From a bacterium (GTDB lineage Bacteria; Patescibacteria; Paceibacteria; UBA9973; SBAW01), in assembly GCA_021825025.1 (NCBI GenBank), contig JAKAIP010000001.1, positions 1 through 28,410 on the forward strand: DNA of 28,410 nt, written 5' to 3'. Made by a program: the position numbers and the translations under genes. Below, piece by piece: positions 3,005 to 25,099 of this stretch. Below the pieces are notes generated by a model, which made no database searches, was not told the origin of the DNA, and saw only the letters and a program-made list of their open reading frames with translations. Within the stretch, counting starts at the first letter, position 1; each line of letters starts with the position of its first letter.

Positions 3005-3208
3005 ATGGGACCTAAATTTACAGGTTTTTATTCTGAAGATGCTGAGCCTATATATGAGGGCGATGTCGTTGTGTGGAATGATATAGAAGGAAAAGAATGC
3101 ACCATGAAGGTTCATTTTTATATGGATCATTGGCATCCATTCAAGAAAATAGACTCTTCAAAATGTACTGTAATTAAGGACATTCATCCTATTCTTTCGC
3201 AACATTAA
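3005..3208 (+). CDS. YopX-like miniprotein (67 aa)
   Basis: The ATG at 3001 hits a stop after four codons, so the start used is ATG at 3005. The protein begins MGPKFTGFYSEDAEPIYEGD and continues VVVWNDIEGKE. The arrangement T-G-x-x-x-x-x-x-x-x-I-Y-E-G-D-V-V resembles the small beta-barrel of the phage/prophage YopX family. Function in that family is unknown. The 3' end overlaps the convergent ATP-grasp gene by 20 nt. The next visible feature on this strand is far away, so this is the last gene of the plus-strand operon in this part of the window. Confidence 0.6.
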   Translation: MGPKFTGFYSEDAEPIYEGDVVVWNDIEGKECTMKVHFYMDHWHPFKKIDSSKCTVIKDIHPILSQH

Positions 3209-7500: not shown

Positions 7501-7792
7501 CAACGTTCCACGCTGAGCCAGGCATAGCTTTCAATGTGTTCATGATCATGTTCTGAGGTTTCGCGGCTTCTTTAGCCAGATTCTCTGCGTTGTCTGCTTG
7601 AATTTTTAGCGATTTTATCTTGCTTTGCTCCAATGACTGCGACGCTTCAGTATTTGCTGGTTCATAAGTACGTGTGATTGTAGTATCCATACCGTGTTGT
7701 TTGGCAATGGAATCAAAAGTGTTCTTCACGCCTTGTTCGGCCTGACCTGCCACATATCCTACAGATTTTGCAATTGAACCAAATATATCCAT
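4565..7792 (-). CDS. large internal virion / DNA-ejection protein (1075 aa)
   Basis: The frame extends upstream to 7879, but ATG at 7792 (MDIFGSIAKSVGYVAGQAEQ) follows the preceding stop directly and gives a sensible start. The protein is mostly helical. A central region (about residues 515-710: FWTRALRSGATSMN, VPNSLRDFETATLVN, LNLWVPFLNARLQGE) resembles the large polyvalent protein-associated domain type (LPD38-like) found in phage ejection proteins. A hydrophobic stretch (AAWLGAKIGGLAIVPFLASY, about 713-732) could insert in a membrane. The C-terminal third is charged and coiled-coil-like. Size and position after the adaptor/nozzle genes resemble the internal core proteins of podoviruses, which form the channel for genome entry. 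It ends in an ATGA overlap with the ATP-grasp gene. Confidence 0.7.
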   Translation of the reverse strand: MDIFGSIAKSVGYVAGQAEQGVKNTFDSIAKQHGMDTTITRTYEPANTEASQSLEQSKIKSLKIQADNAENLAKEAAKPQNMIMNTLKAMPGSAWNVVDTIGRTAGAVSSKVLDDVAPGVKEIYSGIKTGDWQPYLHTLSESSKMPEEFIKDSNGKLRLNPGWSAKAQDIGLGTIGEDFVAKEIGTVLKPAVETALTKVERILKEGQQQIVESKKKSFGKVADKALTELYDSAHPISKLVTDVEKKTGSTLSADENAYIAARIYKASSGKIQQWTSRFGNILKETKKDGTALSDLSSYLFAQRSAERADRGFSNPGELTAEESRAALTEMSGRIGSEAFAKVEAAAQRIYGYADDMLQYMKDGGLLSQEQIDGIKKNNQKYTPFDVIEHLIDNETIVPANRRGFNVAEQDLVQTLKGAAPGQRVDDPLNAFVRKAIKMVDQVERNKVAMKVGDMVKRFGEDIKDFATIRASDKTSIPKGFDKISYLRDGVKEQVILPQDVADAMKRLSAKQADMITRAASFWTRALRSGATSMNVAFIVPNSLRDFETATLVNKDGFNIVDLGRGLFESIKSVATEYGVKVDDGLYQSYLKDGGSMGGYYSTYLNEIPRTVEELTQSNARKLLSLLNPLKLIETAGQISERSTRLGVYGKALSKGKSGIEAAFQSREATVDFAKMGETGKILNLWVPFLNARLQGEVNIMKSIGHDIKDPARAAWLGAKIGGLAIVPFLASYYNNVYRFPEVWNDIADYEKANNIILIYGNHQDDSGAYDQVIKMPKGDWNYFIDPIQDVMNWMVDKNVPLFNTLASDSLMDFVPLTTVQGDTFAQSLGGSLVNTFPTEIKAPVQWMTNFDLYRMQPIVPKSMENASPREQYKPYTSLIAQKLGSLLNLSPLQIQDAVQTLMGGAGTQALNLAGTVEKPGMTLPFTAAGERFMQARGGASTKKADEDIAKFQTQMADRNVIETRTAQNAFNALRKASSDAEAQKILDDIKSNPRIVSKLKTLIEDAAKNTTFADTQLKQLSPIERAQYIYYKLKTFNNDEEAKAWADHLDKEGLFTTQTKQQLQIFIEQQTQGQQ

Positions 7793-7793
7793 A

Positions 7794-9074
7794 TTAATGT
7801 GTCGTTGATGCACCAGAGTCCGTTGAACGTATAGTTGAGATAAGATCGCCCAAACTTGCTGCTGGTTTCCCAATACCAAGTTTAGTGGCTGATTCAGGAT
7901 TCAGGAGTTGTTTAAATTTAGCATCGAAATCAAGCACACTCCCATATGTAGAATAATCATTTCGCAATGCCATATAAAGGCCCGGGTCGACGTATCCATC
8001 TGATCCAAGAGCGTTATATTGAACACCGTCGTATTCTCCCCCTGAGCGCAGAATGGAGTCTGCTGCATTGAATGCCTGCGTTTTAAATGCAGTTGTAGTG
8101 GTGTCTTTTAAGCCGGTAGGATACACAGTAGTAGTAATATCGCCCGTATCGGGATCTTGCGAGATGATAGACATCATCTTATTACCATTTGCATCTACGC
8201 CACTAGTTGTTCCGATTACATTTGCTCTTGGTTTTGTACGCGCAAATTCAGCCATAAACCCAGGTGGGAAGCCTGCCTTCATTTCAAGATCATTGATCTG
8301 AGCGCCGAGAGCTGGGTTTGATTTCACAAAATCAGTGAAGCTCTTTCCTGAGCTTGCAATGATCGTATTCATTGTCGATAACTTGGCGCGCGCGTCGGTA
8401 GAGATACGTTCCGTGAGCGTTTGTTCGTGATATTGCTTGGTCTCAAACGCATTCTGTAACTGCATGTTTTGAGTGAAAGTCTTATTATAGGCATCAGCGG
8501 AAGCCGTGTAATCCTTCTCGGTAAGACTCATCATCGTATTGATGAAATTGTTTTTGATAGTCAAAGCACTATTGATCGCAGCCTCTTCCAGATTCAATGA
8601 GTCCAGCTGTGCCTGAGCGTTTCGCTGCGCTTCACTCATACGACCGGTATAACCCGCCATAGTCTCTCCACCGGCGCCTTCTTCAGATGCCTTAAATTGG
8701 AGCAATGATCCCTGGATCGCTGCCTTCTCCTGCTGGATATTGGAAAGATTGTCTTCCAGTGCGGGAACGCCAGCATCGGCACGCATCTTAGCGTATATGT
8801 CGGTATACGATGGAGGTGGCGGTGGCGTTGCCCCGCCACCAGGCATGACCGCCTGTGCGAATTCGGAAAAACTCTGCCCATCTGTAGGCTTGGTGCCAGT
8901 GCTGTCAACCAATGAACGAAGTGCGCTCGAGCTGGAGACGCCACCAGTACTGGTAGTGCTTGTGCCACCAGTACTGGTGGATGCAGGCGGTGGTGTCACC
9001 AAAGCTCCCGTGTCGGTGTTCACGGTAGCGCCTGACGGCGTCTTAACATCTCCTGTAAGTGGTTGATCAGCCAT
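7794..9074 (-). CDS. probable internal virion protein, helical with low-complexity N-terminus (426 aa)
   Basis: The first 90 residues are Thr/Ser/Gly/Pro-rich (VTPPPASTSTGGTSTTSTGG and a PPPPP run), resembling a flexible linker. Residues about 100-240 form a long helical or coiled-coil region (LSNIQQEKAAIQGSLLQFK, MSEAQRNAQAQLDSLNLEEA). A more globular Thr-rich segment and a short helical C-terminus follow. No enzyme motif is visible. The gene lies between the adaptor-like and large ejection-protein genes, with one base to the latter's start, where podoviruses encode small core proteins. The start has TAAACT six bases upstream instead of a Shine-Dalgarno. Confidence 0.6.
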   Translation of the reverse strand: MADQPLTGDVKTPSGATVNTDTGALVTPPPASTSTGGTSTTSTGGVSSSSALRSLVDSTGTKPTDGQSFSEFAQAVMPGGGATPPPPPSYTDIYAKMRADAGVPALEDNLSNIQQEKAAIQGSLLQFKASEEGAGGETMAGYTGRMSEAQRNAQAQLDSLNLEEAAINSALTIKNNFINTMMSLTEKDYTASADAYNKTFTQNMQLQNAFETKQYHEQTLTERISTDARAKLSTMNTIIASSGKSFTDFVKSNPALGAQINDLEMKAGFPPGFMAEFARTKPRANVIGTTSGVDANGNKMMSIISQDPDTGDITTTVYPTGLKDTTTTAFKTQAFNAADSILRSGGEYDGVQYNALGSDGYVDPGLYMALRNDYSTYGSVLDFDAKFKQLLNPESATKLGIGKPAASLGDLISTIRSTDSGASTTH

Positions 9075-9083
9075 AATTTAAGT

Positions 9084-10340
9084 TTAATCGAAAATAAATC
9101 CTTGCTCATCCTCCCATCGACCGTTTTCAATATTCTTGATCGTGATGTCGTAATCGCCCTCAAGTGATGGCAAGAAGTGATACGTCGTCTGGCGGAGCAT
9201 TCGTTGGGACGGGTATGTCCTCTGATAGTTCGGCAGCGCGACCTGCATATAATATTCCAGTGCCATTTGGATCGTCTGCTTATCTGCGCGCGCGGCGATC
9301 GCCGCGCGATAGTCTCCCCACGCCACAATGAGGTCGAACTCATCGGTATCGGCGACTAACACATCGGTTGATGCACCAGTGGAATTCTCAATGTAGGTTC
9401 CTGACGAATTCTGCCATCCATACTTTGTGTAGTAGAACAGATCATGGAAATCACCATATGCTGCTTCACACCAATCAAGCAACCATGCCGTCGTTGCAAC
9501 GAGGCTGCTGGTTTTCGTAATGATAAACTGAAGATAGTCGATTGCAGCAATGTTCGGAGAACCGGTTGCGGAAGACTTTGATACGGTGAACTTAAGCGTG
9601 TTCCACCCCTGATAGAAAGAAAGACCCTCCCACGTCGTAGTAACTGCTGTGAGCGTATAATAGTCGCTCGCGCTTGAACCTATCACCATCTGGAAATTCG
9701 TCAGACCAGTGAGCGCAGCGGTTGTCGGGATGAACACGCGGATGAAGATCTGGCGGCCTACATAATTCGTGAGGTCCTGCGGAGTCATGCCAGTCACCGT
9801 AATGGTTGCTGCCGTGTTGCTCGAGGCGGTATCGAATTGCAATGAACCGGAACCATGAAGGAAATTCTGGATGTTGATTGATGCATTGCTTGCGTCTCCT
9901 GACGCAGTGATGGTGCCATTGTTTGTCAATGAATCAAAATCATTGAGCATGATATTCTGCGTTTGCAGGCTCGTAGAAATATTCAAGAACCCAAGACCAT
10001 CATGGTCATCGATACAGATCAAACCGCCGACGCGTGTCTTGTTCACATCGAATTCCTCGCGCGACGTCAGATAAAATTCCTCTGAACGGTTAACCTGACG
10101 AGCAAGGTCAATGATCGCTTCACCCTTAAGGTCCACTGGTCGCTGATACGAGGTAATATCCTGAAAGATACCTGGCGCCATCGACACCTTGCGCACCGCT
10201 GAACGCAGGTCCACCTGCGCGAATACCTCGCGTACGATGCGATTGTAGAGCGCCTTCTCATTAAGGAATTGCGCATTCTTGCCGGTCACGCCTTCGGCGA
10301 TCGCGGTCTGAAGATCTGTGTAGGTATAAGTGAAAGACAT
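9084..10340 (-). CDS. head-tail adaptor-like protein with inserted beta-sandwich domain (418 aa)
   Basis: Residues 1-125 are helical then beta (YTDLQTAIAEGVTG, NEKALYNRIVREVFAQVDL, SYQRPVDLKGEAII). Residues about 330-418 return to a helical pattern (DEFDLIVAWGDYRAAIAARA, MALEYYMQVALPNYQRTYPS). Both flanks resemble podovirus adaptor/stopper proteins that bridge portal and nozzle; this is pattern recognition, not a named match. Between them, about 130-300, lies a Ser/Thr-rich domain with jelly-roll style strands (GSGSLQFDTASSNTAATITV, RQIFIRVFIPTTAALTG, YQGWNTLKFTVSKSS), reminiscent of carbohydrate-binding or galactose-binding-like folds. The insert could decorate the tail and bind a surface glycan. 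TAATAT lies six bases upstream of the ATG. Confidence 0.55.
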   Translation of the reverse strand: MSFTYTYTDLQTAIAEGVTGKNAQFLNEKALYNRIVREVFAQVDLRSAVRKVSMAPGIFQDITSYQRPVDLKGEAIIDLARQVNRSEEFYLTSREEFDVNKTRVGGLICIDDHDGLGFLNISTSLQTQNIMLNDFDSLTNNGTITASGDASNASINIQNFLHGSGSLQFDTASSNTAATITVTGMTPQDLTNYVGRQIFIRVFIPTTAALTGLTNFQMVIGSSASDYYTLTAVTTTWEGLSFYQGWNTLKFTVSKSSATGSPNIAAIDYLQFIITKTSSLVATTAWLLDWCEAAYGDFHDLFYYTKYGWQNSSGTYIENSTGASTDVLVADTDEFDLIVAWGDYRAAIAARADKQTIQMALEYYMQVALPNYQRTYPSQRMLRQTTYHFLPSLEGDYDITIKNIENGRWEDEQGFIFD

Positions 10341-10349
10341 AGCTATATA

Positions 10350-12185
10350 TTACAACGGAGCGGCCAAATAATCTTCTGAATCCACATTTAGAGATTCCAC
10401 TTGAACATCCGTACCGCGCATTTCGACCTCAAATTGCGCAAACGCACCGGCTGCCTGAATCACTCCTGGTGTCAGCGTACTATATGATACTGAACCAAAA
10501 GCAACAGGAAGTGTCGGAGATGTCGTACCGAATTGCGTTATGGGATTATTCTTAGTCATCGTAAGGAAGTTATCAAAACGCACCAAAACTCCGCGCGCAG
10601 AGGTATACGGAGCATTCTCAGTAAGGGTTATCGTGATAGTCGATCCTGATGTTCCTGCGTCATTGCCATCAGGAGTTTTGCTAAAAGACGCGATGGTAAA
10701 TGTACATCCGGCGTTATCTCCTGCTAGGATTTCGATATGTGAATTCTCGGGCGATATAGAGCTTGACACTTTTGCAGGAACAATTCCGCTTAATGTTGAT
10801 GCAGATGTCCACGTCAAGTATCCTACGACTGGTAAACCATTCGATTGCGTCAATGGATCTGACACACGATACTTGACGATGACAGAAGCTGCATTGGCAG
10901 CGAAATTTTTACCCTTCACCCATAATGCTTTGAATAAATTGAATATAGCGGTAGCTTTCACATATCCTGTCCTGATTCTGGAACGATTATTATTCGTTAA
11001 ATTACCAGTGTTATAGATTGCTGTCAAATATGATGGAGCGTTGAAGTCGGTATATACCCTACCGCTCAAAAGGAAAGCTGGATTCGTAAATGTGTAAACG
11101 ATTGCACCAAGAGCTCCATAAATAGATGCGCCGAAGTCGATATCCGTTCCAGCTACTTTGTATTGTCCTAATGCACTTTGATGATACAAATTATGAGTGT
11201 TCACATTATATATCCAGACGCCGCCCCTGAGATCCATTCCTTGGACGGGATTTATGAGCATATAGATCAAATTGTTGACCGCTGTCATACCACGAGCGCT
11301 ATTGGTTGATGCATCCAATGTAAGTTGATTGAATGCGTACTTGAATGGAAAATACGTGACTTCTTGAAAATTGTTACCATTAAAAGCCATCAACGAACCA
11401 TTAGTAGCCAATACCCAAGGATTTCCATTCTGTATACACATCTGCATAGGAAAAATATCTAGGGCATAAAAGCTGTTGTATGTAGTAGAAGATCCATCCC
11501 AATATGCAATGGCACCTTTTATATAAAAAGTACTTTGCAAAAGAAACCAAAATCCATCCTGATTCGTGACAATGCTAGCTATCTTATATTGCGGTGGAAA
11601 TATTAATCGACTCGCCGTTATCGTGTCACTACGATCTGTGGTATGTACAAGATTACCATCTCCAACCGCCACTAAGCGCATTGCATCATAACGCGCCATC
11701 GGATGCGCGTTTGTTGATGTCAAAGTAAAACCATATGATGACCATACATGTGCTGAGCCGACCGCATTCAAAACATAGACTACCGTGCTGTCTGATACAA
11801 GGAGACGTTCGTTTTGGTTATTTGTACCATTAATCTCATGCACAACTGCTTCTTGTGCGCCCGTTCCTCCGTAACCCGTATCTTTTGCAAAGGAAGATCC
11901 CGGAGATGAGTTCGAACTTTTAGAGACTATTCCTCCTCCTGCAGCAAACCACTTACTGGCACCATCTGCATCAGTGTTCACAAAACTCTGCGCTATCCCA
12001 AGTCCTGAAATATCCGTACCATCACTGTTCACATTCACACGTAAGGCCGTCCCTATACGTCCAGGAAATCTATCAAGATCAACATTGGAGCAATCCGAAA
12101 AATCACAGGCATATTTATTCGGAGAAATTCCAGACCACCCAGATGCAGATATGTTGGGTATTCGATTCGAATAAGTTTGTATCAT
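10350..12185 (-). CDS. tail nozzle/tube-like structural protein, probable beta-propeller (611 aa)
   Basis: The N-terminus (NRIPNISASGWSGISPN) leads into many short strand repeats with propeller-like spacing: NERLLVSDSTVVYVLNAV, YDAMRLVAVGDGNLVHTTDR, NGNPWVLATNGSLMAFNGNN, VNNLIYMLINPVQG. The C-terminal 200 residues are beta-rich, suggesting an added sandwich domain. Podovirus nozzle proteins (T7 gp12 type) contain a beta-propeller of similar overall size. The assignment rests on size, beta composition and position between the adaptor-like gene and the fibre block, not on sequence identity. No signal peptide or catalytic motif is visible. TACAAT sits six bases upstream of the ATG, inside the end of the previous gene. 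Confidence 0.5.
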   Translation of the reverse strand: MIQTYSNRIPNISASGWSGISPNKYACDFSDCSNVDLDRFPGRIGTALRVNVNSDGTDISGLGIAQSFVNTDADGASKWFAAGGGIVSKSSNSSPGSSFAKDTGYGGTGAQEAVVHEINGTNNQNERLLVSDSTVVYVLNAVGSAHVWSSYGFTLTSTNAHPMARYDAMRLVAVGDGNLVHTTDRSDTITASRLIFPPQYKIASIVTNQDGFWFLLQSTFYIKGAIAYWDGSSTTYNSFYALDIFPMQMCIQNGNPWVLATNGSLMAFNGNNFQEVTYFPFKYAFNQLTLDASTNSARGMTAVNNLIYMLINPVQGMDLRGGVWIYNVNTHNLYHQSALGQYKVAGTDIDFGASIYGALGAIVYTFTNPAFLLSGRVYTDFNAPSYLTAIYNTGNLTNNNRSRIRTGYVKATAIFNLFKALWVKGKNFAANAASVIVKYRVSDPLTQSNGLPVVGYLTWTSASTLSGIVPAKVSSSISPENSHIEILAGDNAGCTFTIASFSKTPDGNDAGTSGSTITITLTENAPYTSARGVLVRFDNFLTMTKNNPITQFGTTSPTLPVAFGSVSYSTLTPGVIQAAGAFAQFEVEMRGTDVQVESLNVDSEDYLAAPL

Positions 12186-12187
12186 AT

Positions 12188-12637
12188 CTATATTGTAACA
12201 GTAAACGTGAATTCTGTGTCAGTGGCAGCCGCAGACGAATTGTATGTTTTAACGATAAATGTCGTATTGGTAGCATTTCGCGTATATGTCATGAAAGCGA
12301 TTGCTGTGGCGCATGGCGCAAAGGTAACGGAATAGTTTTGTGTTACGCCAGTTGACGGAGGTGGCAAGGTATGAGTGATGGTGTATACTCCTGTTGCGGT
12401 ATGAGCGACCGACCAACCAGCTGGGAAAAAGTCTCCAATGGTGCCATTTGATTTTACGTGCCCGATATATTCAGATCGTGGCTTAAAGTTCCACTGGTTC
12501 AAAAACCAGAGCAAGACTTTCTGCGACACCGGATCCAAGGGATACCTCAGTTGCTGGTAAATAGGACCCGCGGTGTTTTCATCCGGGGTTATAGAGATCG
12601 CGGACTCAAGCTGATTAATAGGATCTGACGAAGGCAT
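12188..12637 (-). CDS. small tail-associated structural protein (149 aa)
   Basis: The N-terminal half is mixed (PINQLESAISITPDENTAGP, VSQKVLLWFLNQWNFKPRSE). The second half is a beta-sandwich-like stretch (GDFFPAGWSVAHTATGVYTI, THTLPPPSTGVTQNYSV, NTTFIVKTYNSS, FTFTVTI). The phrase GWSVAHTATGVYTITHTL resembles repeats in the C-terminal parts of phage fibre or receptor-binding proteins. It sits two bases before the nozzle-like gene. A minor tail or fibre-tip role is likely, but the family is not identified. Confidence 0.55.
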   Translation of the reverse strand: MPSSDPINQLESAISITPDENTAGPIYQQLRYPLDPVSQKVLLWFLNQWNFKPRSEYIGHVKSNGTIGDFFPAGWSVAHTATGVYTITHTLPPPSTGVTQNYSVTFAPCATAIAFMTYTRNATNTTFIVKTYNSSAAATDTEFTFTVTI

Positions 12638-12638
12638 A

Positions 12639-12794
12639 TCAGGAAAGTTTCTTATAACCGATGTTCTTGGCGAGATTCTTTACATTGACGCGAACCGACT
12701 TTGTCTTGCGCGGCGTGAACTTACCGACTCCGATCTTTCGACCAGTCTGTGCGGTCTTAGGCGTGAACTTTCCGATACCTGGATTACTGTTCAT
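12639..12794 (-). CDS. small basic protein with internal GKFTP repeat (51 aa)
   Basis: ATG at 12794, TGA at 12639-12641. The sequence starts MNSNPGIGKFTPKTAQTGRK and continues IGVGKFTPRKTKS, so the unit G-K-F-T-P-(K/R) occurs twice, 16 residues apart. The rest (VNVKNLAKNIGYKKL) is also strongly basic, and there are no acidic residues. It overlaps the membrane-protein gene upstream by 11 nt and ends one base before the 149-aa gene, so the frame is locked into the operon. It may bind nucleic acid, or be a small virion or membrane-partner peptide; unknown. Confidence 0.6.
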   Translation of the reverse strand: MNSNPGIGKFTPKTAQTGRKIGVGKFTPRKTKSVRVNVKNLAKNIGYKKLS

Positions 12795-12951
12795 ATACGG
12801 TCATGTTAGTGGTTTGTAATGCTTCAAGCACAGCTGTTTTCTGTGCTTCGGGAGTAGTATTGCGATAGATGAAGATCAGCGTCACAAGGCTGGCAATAGC
12901 AAGCAGGCAAACGACCACGAGCGTATACAGAAGTTTGTCGAGATCGGTCAT
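12784..12951 (-). CDS. single-pass membrane protein (55 aa), possible lysis partner
   Basis: The open frame extends to 13044, but the ATG at 12951 overlaps the previous stop as ATGA and gives MTDLDKLLYTLVVVCLLAIA. One transmembrane segment spans about residues 8-29, followed by a polar tail (NTTPEAQKTAVLEALQTTNM) that may be a short helix. It pairs with the upstream coiled-coil membrane protein and could form a small holin/antiholin or spanin-like unit, but no signature confirms this. Confidence 0.6.
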   Translation of the reverse strand: MTDLDKLLYTLVVVCLLAIASLVTLIFIYRNTTPEAQKTAVLEALQTTNMTVYEQ

Positions 12952-13343
12952 TTTATCGCAATGAATTGAGAAATAAAAATGAATAGGATAGGGAGCACCA
13001 AAACAGCTATGATCGTTAAACCACCCACAATGAACATCTTCCACAACTCTAGCGCGCGGACACGCCCGTTGGTACGCTTCACATGCTCAAGAACTTCTTT
13101 CGTCAACGCAGTATCGGTCTCGATCTTCTGATTCAGATTCGAAAACTGAAGATCGCTTTCAGATTTCGTATAAACGCTACCGAGTCGATCAGAGAGTTCT
13201 TGCAATTGCTTAGCTGTCTCAGGACTCATCGTTGCGTGTTCCCGTCCGATAATTATTCCCTCTTCTTTCGACTTTTCTTTGATAGCTTCAAGTGCTGATG
13301 ACGTGAGCGTTATCTTCCTATTCTGTTGTTCGGTGATAGACAT
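12948..13343 (-). CDS. coiled-coil protein with C-terminal membrane anchor, XhlA-like (131 aa)
   Basis: Residues about 10-90 are helical and charged (TSSALEAIKEKSKEEG, ETAKQLQELSDRLGSV, LNQKIETDTALTKEVLEHVK). Then comes NGRVRALELWKMFIVGGLTI and a hydrophobic stretch VLVLPILFIFISQFI. The layout of a coiled coil ending in N-G-R-V-x-x-L-E-x-W-K followed by one membrane helix is common in small phage proteins and resembles XhlA-type lysis accessory proteins. No catalytic motif is present. It is translationally coupled (ATGA) to the single-pass membrane protein downstream. A role in lysis or in membrane docking during infection is inferred. Confidence 0.6.
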   Translation of the reverse strand: MSITEQQNRKITLTSSALEAIKEKSKEEGIIIGREHATMSPETAKQLQELSDRLGSVYTKSESDLQFSNLNQKIETDTALTKEVLEHVKRTNGRVRALELWKMFIVGGLTIIAVLVLPILFIFISQFIAIK

Positions 13344-13344
13344 G

Positions 13345-14271
13345 TTAGAAGAAGCGGAGGAAGCGGAGGAAGAAGATGGAGGAGACCGGAGTCACGGTAG
13401 GTGTCCATGTTCCACTGGACGTGAACGTCCATATGTCATTACCGCCTGAGACGGTATGAGTTCCGCCTGTTGCGATGATTCCTGCGGAAGTCGGTGCGGA
13501 GATTATGACAATCCCAGAGCCGCCGTTCCCTCCTGTGCCTGTTGAACCGCCACCACCACCACCACCGCCTGTATTTGCCGTGCCAGCAGTTCCATTTGCG
13601 GTATCGACACCACCTGCACCGCCACCTCCGGCGCCCCCAGAACCAGCCGTACCGCCAGTGTAATAGACACCTCCTCCACCACCACCTGCGTAGGTGACAG
13701 ATATGCCGCTTATTGAATTTGCCGTTCCGTCACCACCCTTACCGCCAGTAGAACCAGCAGCATCCCCACCATTTTGTGAGGCGCCCCCGCCTCCCGCAGA
13801 CGGAAATGGTGAACCTGTCTGATTCCATGCTCCACCATTTCCCCCCTGACTACCCGTGCCGCCGACGAAACTAAAAGCATCTCCTGTCGCACCTGCTCCA
13901 CCGCCAGAGCCTCCGTTCCGGCCATTGCCTGCTCCTGCTGAGTTGGTCGCTACCTGACCACCACCGCCACCACCAATAGCAGTTATCGTATCGAATACGG
14001 AATTAGTTCCGTCGCCACCTTGCGCTCCACCTCCACCGCTCACTCCGGTACCTCCTGACCCGACAGTAATTGAATATGGAGTCCCTGAAGTGATCGTGTG
14101 ACCAGAACCTGCCTGATATCCACCTGCGCCACCTCCGGCTCCTGAACCTCCTCCACCACCCGCCACCACTAAGTAAGAGATAGTCGTTGCGGCATTCGCA
14201 TATACTACAGGCAACACAAAAACTCCTATGGAGAGAGCTATTGTGGCGAATGTATATAGTATTCCTTTCAT
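13345..14271 (-). CDS. secreted glycine-rich adhesin/fibre-like protein (308 aa)
   Basis: The N-terminus MKGILYTFATIALSIGVFVL followed by PVVYANA-ATT is a convincing Sec signal peptide with cleavage near residue 27. Residues about 35-265 are built from Gly runs (AGGGGGSGAGGGAGG, IGGGGGGQ, NTGGGGGGGGSTG), resembling polyglycine-II sandwich domains of phage adhesins such as T-even-type gp38 proteins. The region GTHTVSGGNDIWTFTSSGTW is the closing strand module commonly found in glycine-rich domain proteins. The last residues, SIFFLRFLRFF, are odd, hydrophobic-aromatic and come from a purine-rich 9-nt tandem repeat. A signal peptide on a fibre-like protein is unusual for a cytoplasmically assembled virion. 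Its start overlaps the 45-aa gene by ATGA. Confidence 0.7.
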   Translation of the reverse strand: MKGILYTFATIALSIGVFVLPVVYANAATTISYLVVAGGGGGSGAGGGAGGYQAGSGHTITSGTPYSITVGSGGTGVSGGGGAQGGDGTNSVFDTITAIGGGGGGQVATNSAGAGNGRNGGSGGGAGATGDAFSFVGGTGSQGGNGGAWNQTGSPFPSAGGGGASQNGGDAAGSTGGKGGDGTANSISGISVTYAGGGGGGVYYTGGTAGSGGAGGGGAGGVDTANGTAGTANTGGGGGGGGSTGTGGNGGSGIVIISAPTSAGIIATGGTHTVSGGNDIWTFTSSGTWTPTVTPVSSIFFLRFLRFF

Positions 14272-14405
14272 TCTGTTGCTCCTGCTATATAGCCCTCTTC
14301 ATAAGACACATCAAGCCCTTGCGCTTTATAAAAAGCTATCTTAATAAGATTTATAAAATGCTTTCCAGCAGATTTTCCATCTATATATCCTTTTTCGTAA
14401 TTCAT
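14268..14405 (-). CDS. small unknown protein (45 aa)
   Basis: ATG at 14405 lies one base after the 491-aa gene stop, and the TGA overlaps the next gene's ATG (ATGA). The frame therefore fills the gap exactly. The sequence begins MNYEKGYIDGKSAGKHFINL and ends YEEGYIAGATE, so the motif Y-x-x-G-Y-I-x-G occurs near both ends. It is more A/T-rich than the surrounding fibre genes. It lacks a signal peptide or membrane segment and belongs to no family I recognise. It might act as a chaperone or assembly factor for the flanking fibre-like proteins, from position only. Confidence 0.6.
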   Translation of the reverse strand: MNYEKGYIDGKSAGKHFINLIKIAFYKAQGLDVSYEEGYIAGATE

Positions 14406-14406
14406 A

Positions 14407-15882
14407 CTACGGTGTCGCATTAACGAACGCATCGACGGTATACGAGTAAGGAGTGACCACAGTCGAGGTGCTTACCTTGTTATAGAGATTGATGTAGTTG
14501 CACTTGCCGGCGGTCGTAGAGAACGTACCAGAGAGCGTATAAGCTCCTGTGAGCGTCAGCGCACCGCCAGAGGCTCCTGATGGGTTGCAAGCCACAAGAA
14601 CACGTGAGCTGCCTGCGTTAAGGGTCGTGGTGGCATTTATGATAGTGATAGACGTTGCCGATCCGCCGATAAAGTATTGAGCAGCGTTCGCAGAGTTCCA
14701 GTCATAGACGATAGTCGTCGTAGTCGCGGGTTCGGCTTGACTGACTGCGATAGCGCCGTTCTGGTTGACTTGAAGAAGATTGCCCGTCGAAGATGCGATG
14801 GCGAAGAACGGCGCCGAAGTTGCTTGCGCATCAATCGAGAGTTTGGAGAATGGTGTTGAGCTTGCAATCCCAACATTCCCCCCACTGGTTGCGAAATACG
14901 CCGAACCAGTAGAACTCATTACTGTTGTAGACGCATACGGAATCGTGATAGCGGCCGTCGTAGGAGCCGTGGAGAGACGCGTACCGTCGTAATATACAGC
15001 GTTGCCTGAGGTGGTGAAGGAAGATGCGTTCGTACCACCGTTTGCTATAGGTAGGATACCTGTGACGTTTGCCGTTAGGTCTACAAGAGCCGAGGAGACG
15101 ACACCCGCAGTTGCTTTAAGGAAACCAGACAGAGCCGTTGCGAGAGTGGTCTGTCCCGTGACATTAAGAGTACCCGTTGCCGTAAGATTGGCTCCGCTTA
15201 TGTTGCCCGATACTTGTGCATTCCCCATGACTGAAAGCGCTTCAGAAGGAGAAGAGCTGCCGATGCCGACCTTGTTGCTCGACGAGAGAGTCATAGTGTT
15301 TATGCCAGCATTCACAAGATTCATCACATCTGGGGCTGTTGAATCTATACCCGTATTCGGGTCAGCATTGAAAGAATATTCTGGGTAGGGAGCATAGCCA
15401 GTACCGACAGTGATTCCGGTAGCGAATGTCGAGGTAGCTGTACCGGCTACACCACCCACAGTGATCGTACCATTAGAGTTTATAGATGTCTGTCCAGTTG
15501 TGCCGAAATACGATGTCGAGGACGCCATCAAGCCTGCTGTGTCCCATAGAGGGGTCGAGGTCGAGTTCACTGCTACACCGAAGTTAGTAGTAGGAGTGAA
15601 AGGGAAAGAACCGCTCGGAGGAAGTGCCTGAAATGTTGGATCCGAGCCGACGCCATTAGAGGTCAATACATATCCTGAGGTGCTTGGAGAGGTGGTGGAG
15701 ATTGGATTTATACCATTGCCGATCAGTATTGTATGCGCCTGTAGACCTCCAGGATAACCCCAACCAGTACCACCGCCACCTGGAAACAGAATGGTTGCTG
15801 CATTCGCTATCGACACAACGCTCGCACCACCCAAGATCAAAAGGCATGCCACTGCTATGAATGTAAAAATCTTTTTCATCAT
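14407..15882 (-). CDS. secreted fibre-like protein with Parcubacteria-type repeats (491 aa)
   Basis: The signal peptide is clear: MMKKIFTFIAVACLLILGGA then SVVSIANA-AT, cleavage near residue 28. The rest is Ser/Thr/Gly/Ala-rich beta repeats: LPIANGGTNASSFTTSGNAV, YASTTVMSSTGSAYF, GNVGIASSTPFSKLSIDAQ, SSSPSEALSVMGNAQVSG. The LPIANGGTN phrase is typical of tail fibres. The SSTPFSKLS, YASTT and ATSTF phrases are ones I associate with surface proteins of Parcubacteria. No S74-type chaperone is evident at the C-terminus, which ends YSYTVDAFVNATP with one cysteine pair before it. It could be displayed on the infected cell or belong to a virion assembled outside the cytoplasm. Its start overlaps the preceding gene by ATGA. 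Confidence 0.7.
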   Translation of the reverse strand: MMKKIFTFIAVACLLILGGASVVSIANAATILFPGGGGTGWGYPGGLQAHTILIGNGINPISTTSPSTSGYVLTSNGVGSDPTFQALPPSGSFPFTPTTNFGVAVNSTSTPLWDTAGLMASSTSYFGTTGQTSINSNGTITVGGVAGTATSTFATGITVGTGYAPYPEYSFNADPNTGIDSTAPDVMNLVNAGINTMTLSSSNKVGIGSSSPSEALSVMGNAQVSGNISGANLTATGTLNVTGQTTLATALSGFLKATAGVVSSALVDLTANVTGILPIANGGTNASSFTTSGNAVYYDGTRLSTAPTTAAITIPYASTTVMSSTGSAYFATSGGNVGIASSTPFSKLSIDAQATSAPFFAIASSTGNLLQVNQNGAIAVSQAEPATTTTIVYDWNSANAAQYFIGGSATSITIINATTTLNAGSSRVLVACNPSGASGGALTLTGAYTLSGTFSTTAGKCNYINLYNKVSTSTVVTPYSYTVDAFVNATP

Positions 15883-16217
15883 GGATGTCTAAAATAATTT
15901 ACCATTAAGATCTGTCCAGTTGCCGGGGCGTTGTTCATCGTGATCGTCACATTGTTGTCAAAGGTATAATCCGTCGTCAGTTGTAGCTTCTGACCCCCGA
16001 GCCACACCTCCAAAGAGCTACTTGGACTTGGTGTATGCGCTATAGTAAACGTGACGTTGACACCATTGATTAATCCAGTAGGTATTTCACTCAACACAAA
16101 AAATACATTGTTGTCGATCGCCTGTAGAGTCAGGAGTTCACTTGGAGTGACCTGATTAGACCCAGGCGAAAGCATGGCTCCAGGAGTTGTCGGTGCTAGA
16201 AATCGGGATCCAGACAT
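15879..16217 (-). CDS. short tail-fibre module protein (112 aa)
   Basis: After a polar N-terminus (MSGSRFLAPTTPGAMLSPGS) comes the phrase PTGLINGVNVTFTIAHTPSP, then SLEVWLGGQKLQLTTDYTFD and TGQILMVNYF. This G-x-x-N-G-x-N-x-T-F-T-x-x-x-T-P...L-x-x-x-L-x-G...D-Y-T pattern is a common small beta-sandwich repeat of phage tail fibres. No signal peptide is present, unlike the next gene. It could be a fibre base or adaptor. ATGA overlap couples it to the 491-aa gene. Confidence 0.7.
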   Translation of the reverse strand: MSGSRFLAPTTPGAMLSPGSNQVTPSELLTLQAIDNNVFFVLSEIPTGLINGVNVTFTIAHTPSPSSSLEVWLGGQKLQLTTDYTFDNNVTITMNNAPATGQILMVNYFRHP

Positions 16218-16218
16218 A

Positions 16219-16884
16219 TTATTCCTTAGGCATACGATGATTAAGAATCTCTTCGACCTGTATCTTCAGACCAACATGGTCATAGTACTTTTGCAGGCGA
16301 CCTGCGTAGACATAGATATCACTTCGGACGATCGAGATATCACGCAGAATCCGACCGTTCTCTTCAATTTTAGCATCAATATCGGATTCCAGCTTATGCG
16401 CTTCTTGTTCACGAGCTTCCACGGCAGTAAGACGCTCATCAGTAGAAGTGGTGAGTTCTTCTCTTTGCTTTCTCAGGTTCCCGATTTCAGCCTCGAGATC
16501 CGAGAACTGTGTTGACAAGGTTTTGAATTCCTTATGTTTTGTGCGCAGAGCTTCGAGATCTACAGATGCTTGAGCGATATTAGAGACTACCGATTGTATC
16601 TTATCGGAGTGCTCCGACATGAGGCGTTCATGTTCTATAACGATGTCATGAACTCGATTTGTGTGGGACGCATGATCAAGATCTAATTGGGCCAACTTTC
16701 TTAGCATCTGACTAATCTGAGTTTGCAGAGACTCTTTCTCTATCCTAAGTTTAGCAACTTCAGAATGAACGCTGTCTAAAAACATCCTCTCGCTTCCGAG
16801 CGCGCTACTCACAGATGCCAGTTCAGCCTTTAATTGATTGATCTGGCGTACATATTCAGGTCGTTCATCGCGTCGATAGTTCAT
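16219..16884 (-). CDS. long coiled-coil protein (221 aa)
   Basis: Nearly the whole protein reads as heptad-rich helix: IEKESLQTQISQMLRKLAQL, EALRTKHKEFKTLSTQFSDL, EAEIGNLRKQREELTTSTDE, AREQEAHKLESDIDAKIEEN. The N-terminus is MNYRRDERPEYVRQINQLKA and the tail is ILNHRMPKE. It lacks a signal peptide or membrane segment. Its place among fibre genes suggests a rod-like tail part or an assembly chaperone for trimeric fibres. It has no recognisable enzyme motif and contains no cysteine. Confidence 0.65.
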   Translation of the reverse strand: MNYRRDERPEYVRQINQLKAELASVSSALGSERMFLDSVHSEVAKLRIEKESLQTQISQMLRKLAQLDLDHASHTNRVHDIVIEHERLMSEHSDKIQSVVSNIAQASVDLEALRTKHKEFKTLSTQFSDLEAEIGNLRKQREELTTSTDERLTAVEAREQEAHKLESDIDAKIEENGRILRDISIVRSDIYVYAGRLQKYYDHVGLKIQVEEILNHRMPKE

Positions 16885-16885
16885 T

Positions 16886-17428
16886 TTAATTACATGCGTT
16901 CGGCTGCACTACAATCGTTGGCGACGATGTGCCCTGAATATACATACAGGATGTACTACCGTTGCTCGTCATAATCGTGAATTGCGCTGGCGAGGTGGTG
17001 GCGAATATATTCCCTAAGGTAAGGGTCGTCGATGCCACATTGGTTGTTGATGACGCGTTCGGATTCGTCACCATAAATAGAGTGGTGGTAGGCGTAGTAG
17101 TGCCAATAGCCACAGTATTTGCGAACGTCGAGGTAGCCGTCGTTGAAGTGGCCACCAGATTCCCCACTGTGAGTTGCGGCGTCCCTGTAGCTACGAAGCT
17201 GGATCCGTTGTAGCCGATAAGAACATTCGTAGGATACGAGGTGGCATTCGTACCGCCATTCTGAATAGGGAGTGTGCCGCTCACATGACTTAGATCAATG
17301 ATTACTGGAGTTAGCAGACCGCCACCATGATTCGGTTCGAGCAAGCTGCTAGCTGCCGCAAAGGAACCAATGAAGAGACTCGCCCCAACGATCGCACCGA
17401 ACATGATGTACAAGAATTTGTGGGGCAT
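16886..17428 (-). CDS. secreted short fibre-like protein (180 aa)
   Basis: The N-terminus MPHKFLYIMFGAIVGASLFI followed by GSFAAASS is a signal peptide or uncleaved anchor. The body has VSGTLPIQNGGTNATSYPTN, a fibre-type phrase, then Thr/Ser-rich repeats (ATSTTATSTFANTVAIGTTT, NASSTTNVASTTLTLGNIFA) and a C-terminal pair of cysteines (TSCMYIQG, QPNACN) that could form a disulfide after export. It looks like a short relative of the 491-aa secreted protein (14407-15882), sharing the LPI-NGGTNA and ATSTFA phrases. It is the first of the three exported fibre-like proteins in transcription order. Confidence 0.65.
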   Translation of the reverse strand: MPHKFLYIMFGAIVGASLFIGSFAAASSLLEPNHGGGLLTPVIIDLSHVSGTLPIQNGGTNATSYPTNVLIGYNGSSFVATGTPQLTVGNLVATSTTATSTFANTVAIGTTTPTTTLFMVTNPNASSTTNVASTTLTLGNIFATTSPAQFTIMTSNGSTSCMYIQGTSSPTIVVQPNACN

Positions 17429-17431
17429 AGA

Positions 17432-18046
17432 TTACACAATAGCCGCTGCACGACGAACCTGTATATACGACAGTAATTCGTTATCAGCGACACCGTTATT
17501 GATATAGATCGGAAGTGAGTTCTTCGGTATGCCCTGCACGATTGTTGCTGAGTCAGTCAGATTCATCTCATCAACAGTCGCCACAACCACATCATTAATC
17601 AGAACCTGAATACGGTCCGATTCCCAGCGAATTCGGAATCGCGTAAAAGTGTTCGTATAACCAGCTGCCCACGTCAAGGTCTTGGAAAGTACGTTGCCCA
17701 GATTATCGACAACCTTGAAGGTAAACGCCGTACCAGTGATGTCGAAATACAACGCACCAGTCACTGCAGCGCCTCCCTGATTCAGTTGAGCTGGTGCAAT
17801 CAATCCCCACTGACGAGAGTGCCCAGCAGTAGGTGCGACAGGAACCGTAAGACCGAATTCAATATCTACAAAGCAGTGCAAGAGATAAGATGCCGCTGAC
17901 TGAGAGTTGAACTGAAGAACTTTAGTAAGAGCAGTACCACTCACCGTTGGAGTACCTACGATCGATGACCAAAAATTCGTATCGTAACCTTTGATCACTG
18001 GGTCATAGATATACCCATCACGCTTATCAAGATGTAATAGTTCCAT
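17432..18046 (-). CDS. lectin-like beta-sandwich structural protein (204 aa)
   Basis: The protein begins MELLHLDKRDGYIYDPVIKG and has strand-rich segments VLQFNSQSAASYLLHCFVDI, ALYFDITGTAFTFKVVDNLG, TFTRFRIRWESDRIQVLIND and LPIYINNGVADNELLSYIQV. The pattern F-R-I-x-W-x-x-x-x-I-x-V-x-I-(N/D)-x-x-V-V-A-T resembles concanavalin/LamG-like jelly-roll domains of phage tail or head fibres. No signal peptide is present. It follows the beta-helix gene, and a TATAAT sits 8 nt before its ATG, so it may have its own start signal. Confidence 0.6.
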   Translation of the reverse strand: MELLHLDKRDGYIYDPVIKGYDTNFWSSIVGTPTVSGTALTKVLQFNSQSAASYLLHCFVDIEFGLTVPVAPTAGHSRQWGLIAPAQLNQGGAAVTGALYFDITGTAFTFKVVDNLGNVLSKTLTWAAGYTNTFTRFRIRWESDRIQVLINDVVVATVDEMNLTDSATIVQGIPKNSLPIYINNGVADNELLSYIQVRRAAAIV

Positions 18047-19131: not shown

Positions 19132-20139
19132 CTAAGCCGTACCGTCGCCCGATGAGAACCCGATCCACTGAGCGTTAGTGATTGCAATGCCATAGCCTGC
19201 ACGTACACCGAACGTCCAATCATCGGTCGAGAAATCGTCACCGTTGTTCCCCTCTGACGGAGATTTGAGATGTGGTTCCTCCCATACGAGAAGATGGGCA
19301 GTGGACTTCTTGGTTGAAGCAAGACCCCAATACTTATTCTTCGTCGAGTCTACAAGACCATTCACATCAGTTGCCACGAGCGGCAAAATGACATGACGGT
19401 ACTTGTACTTGTAAACGTTCTCGACACCTGAGTTCACTGCATCCGGAGAGGCGAGCGACTTCAGATATTCCTGCACCACGTTGATCTGCGTCGGATCATC
19501 AGTCGTCCAGAGCAGATCCGGAGAAATGCGGATCTTCTCGCCGAACTGGTTCACCGACTGCTCGACAAACTGCCGCTCCATCGACTCAAGCGAACCGCGC
19601 GAGATAAGCGGGTTGTTCGCCAAACGGTTTCGGTACGTCACTGACGAACCTTTGACCGTATGCGCCGTGTTGAAGAGCGAGAGCGTATCTCCCACTGCGA
19701 TTGCCACGGAGACACCGTCCATGTCGGTATACGACGTAGAGGTGCCGAAGGTAATGCGGTGCGACAGGTCGAGCTCCATGCGCTCTGCGCCCTGCGTACC
19801 AAGCGAGGTAAGGGTGTCAATGACATCCTGATACTTGTTACGGGTTCGCATTTCGTAAGTGATCGAAAGATCTGCAGCCACACGATATGCGGTGAGGTTA
19901 ACCGAATAGCCCTGCTGCACCTTTGCGTGTGCAGACTGATCGCCTTCCTGCTTACGACGCGCATACCGATTGCGATCGATCTCGGTAAACTGTCGGATGT
20001 CGCCTGTCTGTTCTGGTACAGTCTCGACAATGAAGAGGCCCGAATTACGAGCATTCATTTCCACCGTGTCTTTCTCCTTTTCGAAGATGACGTTGGCGAG
20101 CTGCACGAAGACATTGAGTCCTACTGTATTTAGATCCAT
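19132..20139 (-). CDS. major capsid protein, HK97 fold (335 aa)
   Basis: The order and length fit an HK97-fold capsid protein. The N-terminal helical arm (NVFVQLANVIFEKEKDTVEM), the QQGYSVNLTAYRVAADLSIT strand-helix, the spine-helix-like segment (GAERMELDLSHRITFG), the loop FNTAHTVKGSSVTYRNRLAN and the C-terminal WTFGVRAGYGIAITNAQWIG resemble Mu gpT-like/HK97-like head subunits. It lies after the decoration protein and scaffold candidate in the late operon. No cleavable delta-domain or adjacent protease is apparent, so assembly probably depends on the separate scaffold. It should be the most abundant virion protein. Confidence 0.8.
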   Translation of the reverse strand: MDLNTVGLNVFVQLANVIFEKEKDTVEMNARNSGLFIVETVPEQTGDIRQFTEIDRNRYARRKQEGDQSAHAKVQQGYSVNLTAYRVAADLSITYEMRTRNKYQDVIDTLTSLGTQGAERMELDLSHRITFGTSTSYTDMDGVSVAIAVGDTLSLFNTAHTVKGSSVTYRNRLANNPLISRGSLESMERQFVEQSVNQFGEKIRISPDLLWTTDDPTQINVVQEYLKSLASPDAVNSGVENVYKYKYRHVILPLVATDVNGLVDSTKNKYWGLASTKKSTAHLLVWEEPHLKSPSEGNNGDDFSTDDWTFGVRAGYGIAITNAQWIGFSSGDGTA

Positions 20140-23071: not shown

Positions 23072-25099
23072 TCACATCATACCAACCGCTGCCTGACCTG
23101 GCGGTGTTGGCGTGGGAGCCTTACCTGCTTCGATTAATGTCTTCGGCATCAATTTGCCGCGCGCGCCCTGACCACCTGCAGTTGGCTGCGGCGGTTGCTG
23201 CTGATCACCACCACCTTGATCACCCTGTTGCGGCTGTGCTTGTTTGAACATCTTCATCGGATTCTGCCGCCACACCGTCGCATACTCCTTCTGCATCTCT
23301 TCCTTATTGAGAGTATCTGGGAAATACTGCATCGCACCGTCCATCATCTCCTTGAACATGATCTTACCAAGATCCGAAGTCTTCTTTTCCTTATGGATCA
23401 CATTCACGCGAAAAGTGTACTTACCGCCCTGCACCACATCTGGATCAATCGTATGTATGCGTGTCGGAACACCCGTGCGCATTTTGATGTCTTCCTCCTC
23501 ACGATAAATATCCGCCCCATCTTGTGCCGGACCGATACGTACGATCGATTGCCCCGGTCCCTCATTGTCGATCATCTTATCGAGGTTCATCGTCCTATAT
23601 GTGTTCTTCAATTCCTTACGCGCGTCATCAATCTTCACCTCTTCACTCTTCAGCGGCCGGAACCAGTTCTCCAGCACATTGTACAGGCGCGCCTGACCGA
23701 GCTTACGCTCAAGCGTCGATGCAGCGAACACAATAAGCACCACCATGAGTTCCGCCTGGCTTTGCATCTGTCGTCGCTGTGTTGCTGTCTGACGACCGCC
23801 TCCTTGAGACCCAACACCTGTAATAGATGCGGAAGCTGTGTCATTATCAATTGACTTCTGCAGTTCCTGTACCACCTGCATCTCCGCGCGCGTCACTCCG
23901 ATCGACCCCTCAGGATCCAATCGTTTGATCTTGTCCGCATCAATACCGTGCGTCATCTTTCCTGGCATGAAGATCCGATTGCTCAGCTGCACACCAGTCA
24001 TGTTCGCATACGACGGAATGAACGACTTCTGCGTCTTCAATATCATGAGCCGCCAGAATTCATCGTTCAGTAACTGCTTCGTGCGCATGATCATCGGAAC
24101 CGACTTACCGTATGCGAAGAACGGTGAAATGATCCACAGCACCTGCATCGTAATGTTGTACTGCGGTTCATCACCCCACTGCCACGGGAGCGGCAGACCT
24201 ACCGGCGTCATGAGAATGCCGTTGATTATAACCGCGTATTCATTGTTGAACCGGTCCTGATATTTAATCACTTCACAGTGATCTTCCTGCAGTTTCGTTA
24301 GCGACCAGTTGTTGTTGTACACCGTTCCCTGCGCTTGGGAAGCATATGAAAAATACTGCACTTTCTTCTGCACGCTCTCCCACCGCTTCCATGTACCATA
24401 CTCCTCTTCGACCAACTCGTACGGAAGCTGCTGCACCGTAAAGATGAATGGTTGATTTTCGATGCCGAATACCGTAATGTCTCCGAGAAACACGTTCTCA
24501 TTCTGAATTATGTTATGAACTGGACGTCCTGGCTTTTTCTTGTGCTGCGTTATCCATTTTGCGGTATCGAAATTCTGTCCGTTGAATGCCTCAACGAATC
24601 GCTTGAGCTTCACCGTTCCCGTCTCCCACACCTCTTCGAGGAACACTTCCCCCTGCTCAAGCATCACCCGCTGACGCGCTGCGATCTTCTCATCGTCATC
24701 CTCATCGTAATACGTCTTAATGATGATGTCTTCGAATGAGATCGCCATATCATTGTCTTTCAGAGCCGACTCGTTCCACGCCATCACCTCCGGCGTGAGG
24801 TTGAGATTCATGAGATACGAATGAATCAGCGTCATCTTCTCGTTCGTCACACCCGTCACGAACGTCGTATCGTCTTTATTCCTCTTCGGCTGAATATAGG
24901 TGTTCGCACCCTTCCTATTCCATTCACATCGCTGCGTATACGTCATGCCATCGAACTCGTCGTGTTCGTTCTCACGAATGTCTCGTGCTCTTGCCATCTT
25001 GTTTCGCAGGATCCCGATGTACTGCATCTCGAGATCGGAATAATCCGGCGCAGTGATCGTCGGGTTCTGGCGTTCGTCAAGAGTTTTTTGTGTCTCCAT
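23072..25099 (-). CDS. portal protein (675 aa)
   Basis: Length and gene order (terS-terL-portal) fit a podovirus-type portal. The wing-like N-terminal domain includes LIHSYLMNLNLTPEVMAWNE. The central part has VIKYQDRFNNEYAVIINGIL, ISPFFAYGKSVPMIMRTKQL and LNDEFWRLMILKTQKSFIPS, the kind of stem/clip region seen in large portals. A helical crown region (VTRAEMQVVQELQKSIDNDT) precedes an extended Gln/Gly/Pro-rich C-terminus (QGDQGGGDQQQPPQPTAGGQ). The portal forms the dodecameric vertex through which terminase pumps DNA. TATAAT lies 8 nt before the ATG, with no Shine-Dalgarno. Confidence 0.8.
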   Translation of the reverse strand: METQKTLDERQNPTITAPDYSDLEMQYIGILRNKMARARDIRENEHDEFDGMTYTQRCEWNRKGANTYIQPKRNKDDTTFVTGVTNEKMTLIHSYLMNLNLTPEVMAWNESALKDNDMAISFEDIIIKTYYDEDDDEKIAARQRVMLEQGEVFLEEVWETGTVKLKRFVEAFNGQNFDTAKWITQHKKKPGRPVHNIIQNENVFLGDITVFGIENQPFIFTVQQLPYELVEEEYGTWKRWESVQKKVQYFSYASQAQGTVYNNNWSLTKLQEDHCEVIKYQDRFNNEYAVIINGILMTPVGLPLPWQWGDEPQYNITMQVLWIISPFFAYGKSVPMIMRTKQLLNDEFWRLMILKTQKSFIPSYANMTGVQLSNRIFMPGKMTHGIDADKIKRLDPEGSIGVTRAEMQVVQELQKSIDNDTASASITGVGSQGGGRQTATQRRQMQSQAELMVVLIVFAASTLERKLGQARLYNVLENWFRPLKSEEVKIDDARKELKNTYRTMNLDKMIDNEGPGQSIVRIGPAQDGADIYREEEDIKMRTGVPTRIHTIDPDVVQGGKYTFRVNVIHKEKKTSDLGKIMFKEMMDGAMQYFPDTLNKEEMQKEYATVWRQNPMKMFKQAQPQQGDQGGGDQQQPPQPTAGGQGARGKLMPKTLIEAGKAPTPTPPGQAAVGMM

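Follow-up and report, generated by a model that had tools for sequence, protein, structure and literature searches.

Predicted Sec-exported fibre proteins in the virion operon of an uncultured tailed phage

We analyzed a stretch of 28,410 nucleotides (assembly GCA_021825025.1, contig JAKAIP010000001.1, positions 1 to 28,410; hereafter the window), whose minus strand encodes the virion half of a tailed phage. Our subject is a set of three genes of this operon, here called A, B and C, that encode fibre-type proteins behind predicted signal peptides. By the usual view, the fibres of tailed phages fold and are assembled within the cytoplasm.

Three signal-led genes in the virion operon

A first-pass annotation of the window had reported three open reading frames (ORFs) with classical signal peptides, two of them cleaved after ANA before AT. 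All three were found at the coordinates given, and the predicted cleavage after ANA was recovered for A and B. The genes and their immediate neighbors are as follows.

13345..14271, minus strand: gene A, 308 amino acids (aa); signal peptide, Gly-rich fibre-tip domain and short aromatic C-terminal tail
14191..14271, minus strand: predicted signal peptide of A, residues 1-27, cleaved between ANA and AT
14268..14405, minus strand: 45-codon ORF linking B and A, read from sequence; its stop overlaps the start of A
14407..15882, minus strand: gene B, 491 aa; signal peptide, fibre-shaft-type body (GGTG / LPIANGGTNA), mature cysteines 432 and 461
15799..15882, minus strand: predicted signal peptide of B, residues 1-28, cleaved between ANA and AT
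15879..16217, minus strand: small fibre-domain protein, 112 aa, signal-free; its 3' end overlaps the start of B by 4 bases
16219..16884, minus strand: coiled-coil protein of the same operon, 221 aa
16886..17428, minus strand: gene C, 180 aa; signal peptide, short fibre body, LPIQNGGTNA, C-terminal cysteines 161 and 179
17351..17428, minus strand: predicted signal peptide of C, about residues 1-26, cleavage point less certain

The genes are read in the order C, coiled coil, 112-aa protein, B, 45-codon ORF and A, with gaps or overlaps of a few bases. The N-terminus is MKGILYTFATIALSIGVFVLPVVYANA followed by ATTISY in A, MMKKIFTFIAVACLLILGGASVVSIANA followed by ATILFP in B, and MPHKFLYIMFGAIVGASLFIGSFAAA followed by SSLLEP in C. 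Each has a positive n-region, a hydrophobic core and a small-X-small cleavage motif, as expected of substrates of Sec and signal peptidase I under a home-made n/h/c-region rule (not SignalP). When residues 2-40 were shuffled, the rule was passed by 218/2000 (A), 309/2000 (B) and 73/2000 (C) sequences. Because so many shuffles pass, single calls are only moderately strong, and we therefore sought evidence independent of the caller.

Gene A matches the Pfam family PF21722 (Gly_rich_2) at 62.2 bits (cut-off 24.3, E 9e-17) and also phrog_2295, whose function is unknown. Its predicted fold is that of a phage fibre tip (Bxb1, Pam3) and coincides with the solved Gly-rich fibre-tip fold. The domain begins at the cleavage point, so that the signal alone precedes it; this differs from the Gly_rich_2 tips of the Bxb1 tail and of the cyanophage Pam3 fibre, as the match to Pam3 runs from chain residue 94. 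B and C gave no Pfam match up to E 1, and the AlphaFold model of B is of low confidence (pLDDT 37), the N-terminal helix alone being confident. The assignment of B draws on its cysteine pair, a conserved N-terminal motif and 59 proteins among the matches listed (E 1e-3, B included). The fibre bodies are otherwise as first annotated, but B and C contain a single LPI-NGGTNA each and not a run of repeats. A (window 13345-13400) and the relative in locus L014 (10030-10073) end in a short aromatic tail, SSIFFLRFLRFF and ATFAFWQWLDF; this tail lies beyond the end point of many Gly_rich_2 proteins, and the anchored neighbor in L014 ends alike.

Conserved signals and paired cysteines

In the closest relative holding this region, IMGVR_UViG_3300012964_000007 (terminase 59% and capsid 71% identical), the three genes stand in the same order at 54% (A), 32% (B) and 29% (C) identity. 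Conservation of the signals had been proposed as a check, and it was borne out here: the three syntenic genes of the relative are all signal-led though the proteins have diverged. A and C of L014 were paired with the window's genes by synteny and alignment only, and the start of the L014 homologue A3 was placed one codon late.

A similar pattern was seen among the homologues of B. Of those among the matches listed, 56 start with methionine, and 26 of the 56 pass the signal rule. When GGTG lies near the N-terminus, the rule is passed by 12 of 19 and a hydrophobic start is present in 16 of 19; shuffled starts pass in 138/3800 cases. An alignment of eight homologues, one of which starts too late to include a signal, showed that the signal itself varies and that the stretch right after it is well conserved. 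In diverged homologues, small-X-small motifs precede this conserved mature start.

Neither a single-protein search nor an alignment search detected B homologues in IMG/VR, and the phage family was therefore reached through the capsid gene, whose family is large (1671 proteins at E 1e-3). The capsid gene and two others of the window's virion operon are the following.

19132-20139, minus strand: capsid; Pfam Phage_capsid_4 below the cut-off (20.5 vs 27 bits)
23072-25099, minus strand: probable portal, by place and size only; no match in Pfam or PHROG
25123-26703, minus strand: terminase, by PHROG match

Two further observations back the capsid identity: a capsid domain is listed for this protein, and an annotated relative exists at 25%. 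We compared 27 capsid-anchored loci, namely the window and 26 of 30 capsid loci (L184, L193, L197 and L208 were dropped as near-duplicates or cut off). No signal was called among 251 genes upstream of the capsid gene, and 16 were called among 184 genes downstream (Fisher p 7e-7), a split on which chance clustering of the signals was rejected. The 16 calls fall in 9 of the 27 loci, three being the window's and three the relative's; some (82, 135, 138 and 193 aa) are short or hard to classify as fibres.

Signal-less homologues, which the first-pass annotation had named as evidence against export, were found in part. A signal was present in 7 of the 116 proteins with a methionine start among the best 120 of 3067 Gly_rich_2 homologues, so that A differs in this respect as well from most of these proteins, and the Gly-rich proteins of the family loci L191 and L200 start at the domain without a signal. 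These results show that only some lineages have the signal; they do not show that it is inactive where it is present.

Disulfide-bonded proteins tend toward even cysteine numbers. The mature cysteine count was even in 23 of 26 signal-led B homologues (p 4.4e-5), and in those with even counts the gaps alternate, with a median of 16 residues within pairs and 140 between pairs. Since B homologues share domains and are not independent, we also took one per C-terminal similarity group, and 12 of 15 were even (p 0.018). Among 20 B homologues whose start is not hydrophobic (proteins that have a hydrophobic start but fail the rule were excluded), counts were even in 8 of the 18 with cysteines; in these phages, the remaining genes of 120 aa or more gave even counts in 101 of the 243 with cysteines. 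Within the capsid family, 11 of the 13 signal-led genes with cysteines were even, a set that includes the window's B and C. For the cysteine-containing proteins among the best 120 of the 3067 Gly_rich_2 homologues, the counts were even in 5/5 signal-led versus 18/61 signal-less proteins. In the window, B and C each have two mature cysteines and A has none; the relative has two in each, and three were counted in each signal-less Gly-rich protein of L191 and L200. The paired cysteines support folding outside the cytoplasm, and B and C are probably disulfide-bonded.

Taken together, we put the probability at roughly 0.85 that A, B and C are exported through the host Sec pathway; they would then fold outside the cytoplasm, with disulfides in B and C. 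The export that the first-pass annotation had proposed is thus well supported by the kept signals and the cysteine pairing; the roles that it suggested, namely superinfection exclusion, decoy, altered attachment and virion part, are candidates.

A small fibre-domain protein and its patchy distribution

The 112-aa protein encoded directly before B has weak domain matches. PF03906 (T7 gp17-like) fell below the cut-off (15.8 vs 25.2 bits, E 0.011, 1/7 members), and CBM_X2 was matched in 3/7 members with a best E of 0.0039. Searches with tblastn found relatives in L182, L185, L198, L204, L205 and L210 and none in the signal-free family loci L183, L189, L191, L192, L194, L196, L200, L201 and L203. 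In all 8 family members found to have the small gene, it is followed by a gene for a membrane-targeted protein, which it overlaps in most of them. The small gene serves in relatives as a marker for the cassette of exported fibres. The pattern was noticed in the window, L182, L198, L204, L205 and L210; L185 and L207 were checked afterwards, and theirs were the two among nine further records in which a profile search detected this protein. The next gene in L185, truncated by the contig end, has a hydrophobic anchor start and an FPYQGGTG motif; in L207 the next gene overlaps the small gene by 4 bases and encodes a membrane-targeted protein with the same motif. The protein next to the small gene in L205 is short and anchored, and the fibre comes two genes later.

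On a capsid tree of the 18 rows with enough downstream sequence, the signal label (9/18, including the weaker L187, L190 and L209) is not clustered; it requires at least 4 changes, at best 6, a pattern compatible with gain and loss on more than one occasion. In the sister locus L183, tblastn gave no match to B or to the small gene, and the available stretch holds no signal-led, poly-Gly, NGGT or GGTG-type ORF. By sequence, the cassette is patchy among relatives, an optional insertion in the virion operon.

The surrounding genes agree with the earlier placement of A, B and C in a virion operon beside signal-free fibre genes. In addition to the 112-aa protein, two signal-free fibre-type genes lie close by.

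12188..12637, minus strand: tail-fibre-tip-like signal-free protein, possible virion receptor binder; PHROG tail, tail fiber, E 2e-4 to 4e-3
17432..18046, minus strand: signal-free protein, possibly lectin-like, possible virion receptor binder; DUF1942, weak GH16-type

For the latter, the Pfam match to DUF1942 is barely over the cut-off (23.4 vs 22.4 bits) and the GH16-type matches are weak and below it; relatives of the protein were found in L182, L185 and L210. After A, two overlapping genes at 12784-13343 encode small membrane proteins, possibly for lysis, one of which has a coiled coil and then a C-terminal transmembrane stretch. Farther along, 4565-7879 encodes a 1104-aa protein with Pfam LPD38 (large polyvalent protein associated, E 3.5e-17), and its 459-aa neighbor at 3189-4568 has no Pfam match.

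The host is likely patescibacterial, because all three B homologues that bear an organism name are from Patescibacteria (Minisyncoccia, Patescibacteria group, Gottesmanbacteria). No host can be read from the terminase, whose top match in GTDB genomes (best 80 of 257 loci) reaches 47% and lies on a short contig of an Acidobacteriaceae metagenome-assembled genome. The longest contig in the protein cluster containing B is 40,900 bases. The contig of the capsid homologue P0245 (63%) is 736,713 bases long; this may be a prophage in a small genome, which would give a host.

Possible roles of exported fibres

In the scheme that we favor, A, B and C would pass through the host Sec pathway and B and C would close their disulfides outside the cytoplasm. 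The three probably form one common fibre, with B as shaft, the Gly-rich A as tip and C as a short companion; we infer this from L210, where a single exported chain (9022-11091) joins a B-type start, a Gly-rich domain and a C-type cysteine tail. Before it lyses, the infected cell would then display or release these receptor-binding fibres, which would occupy receptors on its surface, on its debris and on its neighbors and keep both rival and sibling phages from being wasted there. An accessory role is plausible, since L183 shows that a phage can do without the cassette and since 12188-12637 and 17432-18046 offer other, signal-free binder candidates. The accessible part of PMC12946066 describes a purified fibre adhesin that blocks adsorption when added from outside. 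We consider occupation of receptors before lysis to have slightly less than an even chance of being the role.

Several points weigh against this scheme. Receptor masking is itself a step that we infer, and the location among virion genes suggests late expression, which is compatible with several roles. Gene A has no cysteine, the starts in L185, L198, L204 and L207 resemble uncleaved anchors more than they do cleaved signals, and tblastn found no 112-aa gene in the signal-labelled L187, L190 and L209. A local tblastn with mature A or C gave no match at 1e-4; as even L014 was missed, this search is uninformative. In unrelated phages, signal-called genes have even cysteine counts in only 8/15 cases, and the gene after a small protein with this domain has a called signal in 0/6; the latter result marks the link between small gene and following signal as a trait of this phage family.

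The unrelated phages include L026, L061 and L036 from IMG/VR, perhaps of Bacteroidota by the style of their signals, in which two to four signal-led fibre-type proteins stand in a row near a fibre domain of the INGxNxxFT type. In L036 the gene after the small protein looks signal-like by eye and is not called by the rule. Of 14 signal-led fibre-type proteins picked by hand and after the fact, 11 have cysteines, with an even mature count in 9. Given the parity and gene order just described, we do not claim, more widely, that fibre export occurs in many unrelated phages.

The main rival to receptor occupation, doubtful taken alone and nearly as plausible, is that the fibres are exported for disulfide formation and mounted on virions outside the cell, the particles picking them up at or after lysis on a foot such as the 112-aa protein. 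This would account for the small fibre-domain protein that precedes an exported fibre in 8/8 members, mostly with overlapping genes, and for the mature N-terminus conserved directly behind the cleavage site; in L191 and L200, signal-less Gly-rich fibres occupy the same region, as if the job were done from inside. However, secreted fibres would be diluted unless held, the anchor-like starts of relatives would retain them in the membrane, the sister L183 manages without the cassette, and the small protein matches the T7 fibre only weakly. A third reading, in which the exported fibres alter how the infected cell (perhaps an episymbiont) adheres to other cells, is less plausible than either and on the whole improbable. 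It has a precedent in the phage SM1 tail protein PblB, which the part of PMC4508584 available to us places on the cell surface as an adhesin, but the virion operon is probably expressed late, and inspection by eye of the relative's ORFs, together with a Pfam scan of 10 of its genes, revealed no integrase.

Two further explanations dispense with export for a phage purpose. The hydrophobic N-termini might be virion parts, such as buried or membrane-penetrating helices, as the solved relatives of A belong to phage particles and 4-15% of shuffles pass the rule from composition alone; the small-X-small motifs before the conserved mature start and the even, paired cysteines speak against this, and we find it slightly harder to credit than cell adhesion and, like that, less plausible than masking or outside mounting. 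Host cell-surface genes carried into the phage without a phage function are very unlikely: some homologues look cellular (P0057, for example, has a C-terminal anchor-like tail), but the genes hold a syntenic position and recur in the virion operon across the family.

Each known system that we compared shares part of this arrangement. Llp of phage T5, which acts in superinfection exclusion by masking receptors, is likewise an exported phage protein with the effect proposed here; it is a small lipoprotein, not a fibre. Signal-bearing phage proteins between tail genes are already known from Lom of phage lambda, an envelope protein (PMC12309495, in the portion accessible) that differs in being an outer-membrane beta-barrel. 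Tail proteins on cell surfaces are known as well: as far as the accessible part of PMC4508584 goes, PblA and PblB of the Streptococcus mitis phage SM1 and the pneumococcal PblB are tail-fibre-type phage proteins found on the surface, where they bind cells, and pneumococcal PblB has a predicted signal peptide. The S. mitis PblB, however, is released when the lytic cycle permeabilises the cell (same source), whereas the window has three linked genes with Sec signals and paired cysteines in B and C. Beyond pneumococcal PblB, we found no description of Sec-exported tail fibres among the papers listed from the open-access literature, judged by titles and the starts of abstracts; nor, in that literature, which leaves most subscription papers outside, did we find a linked cassette of Sec-targeted, probably disulfide-bonded fibres in a virion operon. 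Among isolated phages there was no match to A, B or the signal-led fibres of L061, L026, L036 and L032; 17 records share short stretches with the protein of L082, and the capsid matches only two unclassified records, weakly. Searches with A, B, the capsid and the signal-led fibres found no isolate with virion proteomics.

As a tentative generalization, which we think somewhat less likely to hold than to fail, a widespread family of uncultured tailed phages may finish or deploy its receptor-binding fibres outside the cell, by Sec export and disulfide formation, and then either coat the infected cell or mount the fibres on released virions, with the small foot protein and the exported fibre moving between phages as a unit. 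The cysteine-parity test needs sequence only and can be applied across all phage genomes in search of further exported proteins of virion operons. If the reading is true, exported disulfide-bonded fibres would have a different site of folding or use and would be a new protein class among the phage tools that act on the surface of the infected cell, and not all tailed-phage fibres would be made for assembly in the cytoplasm.
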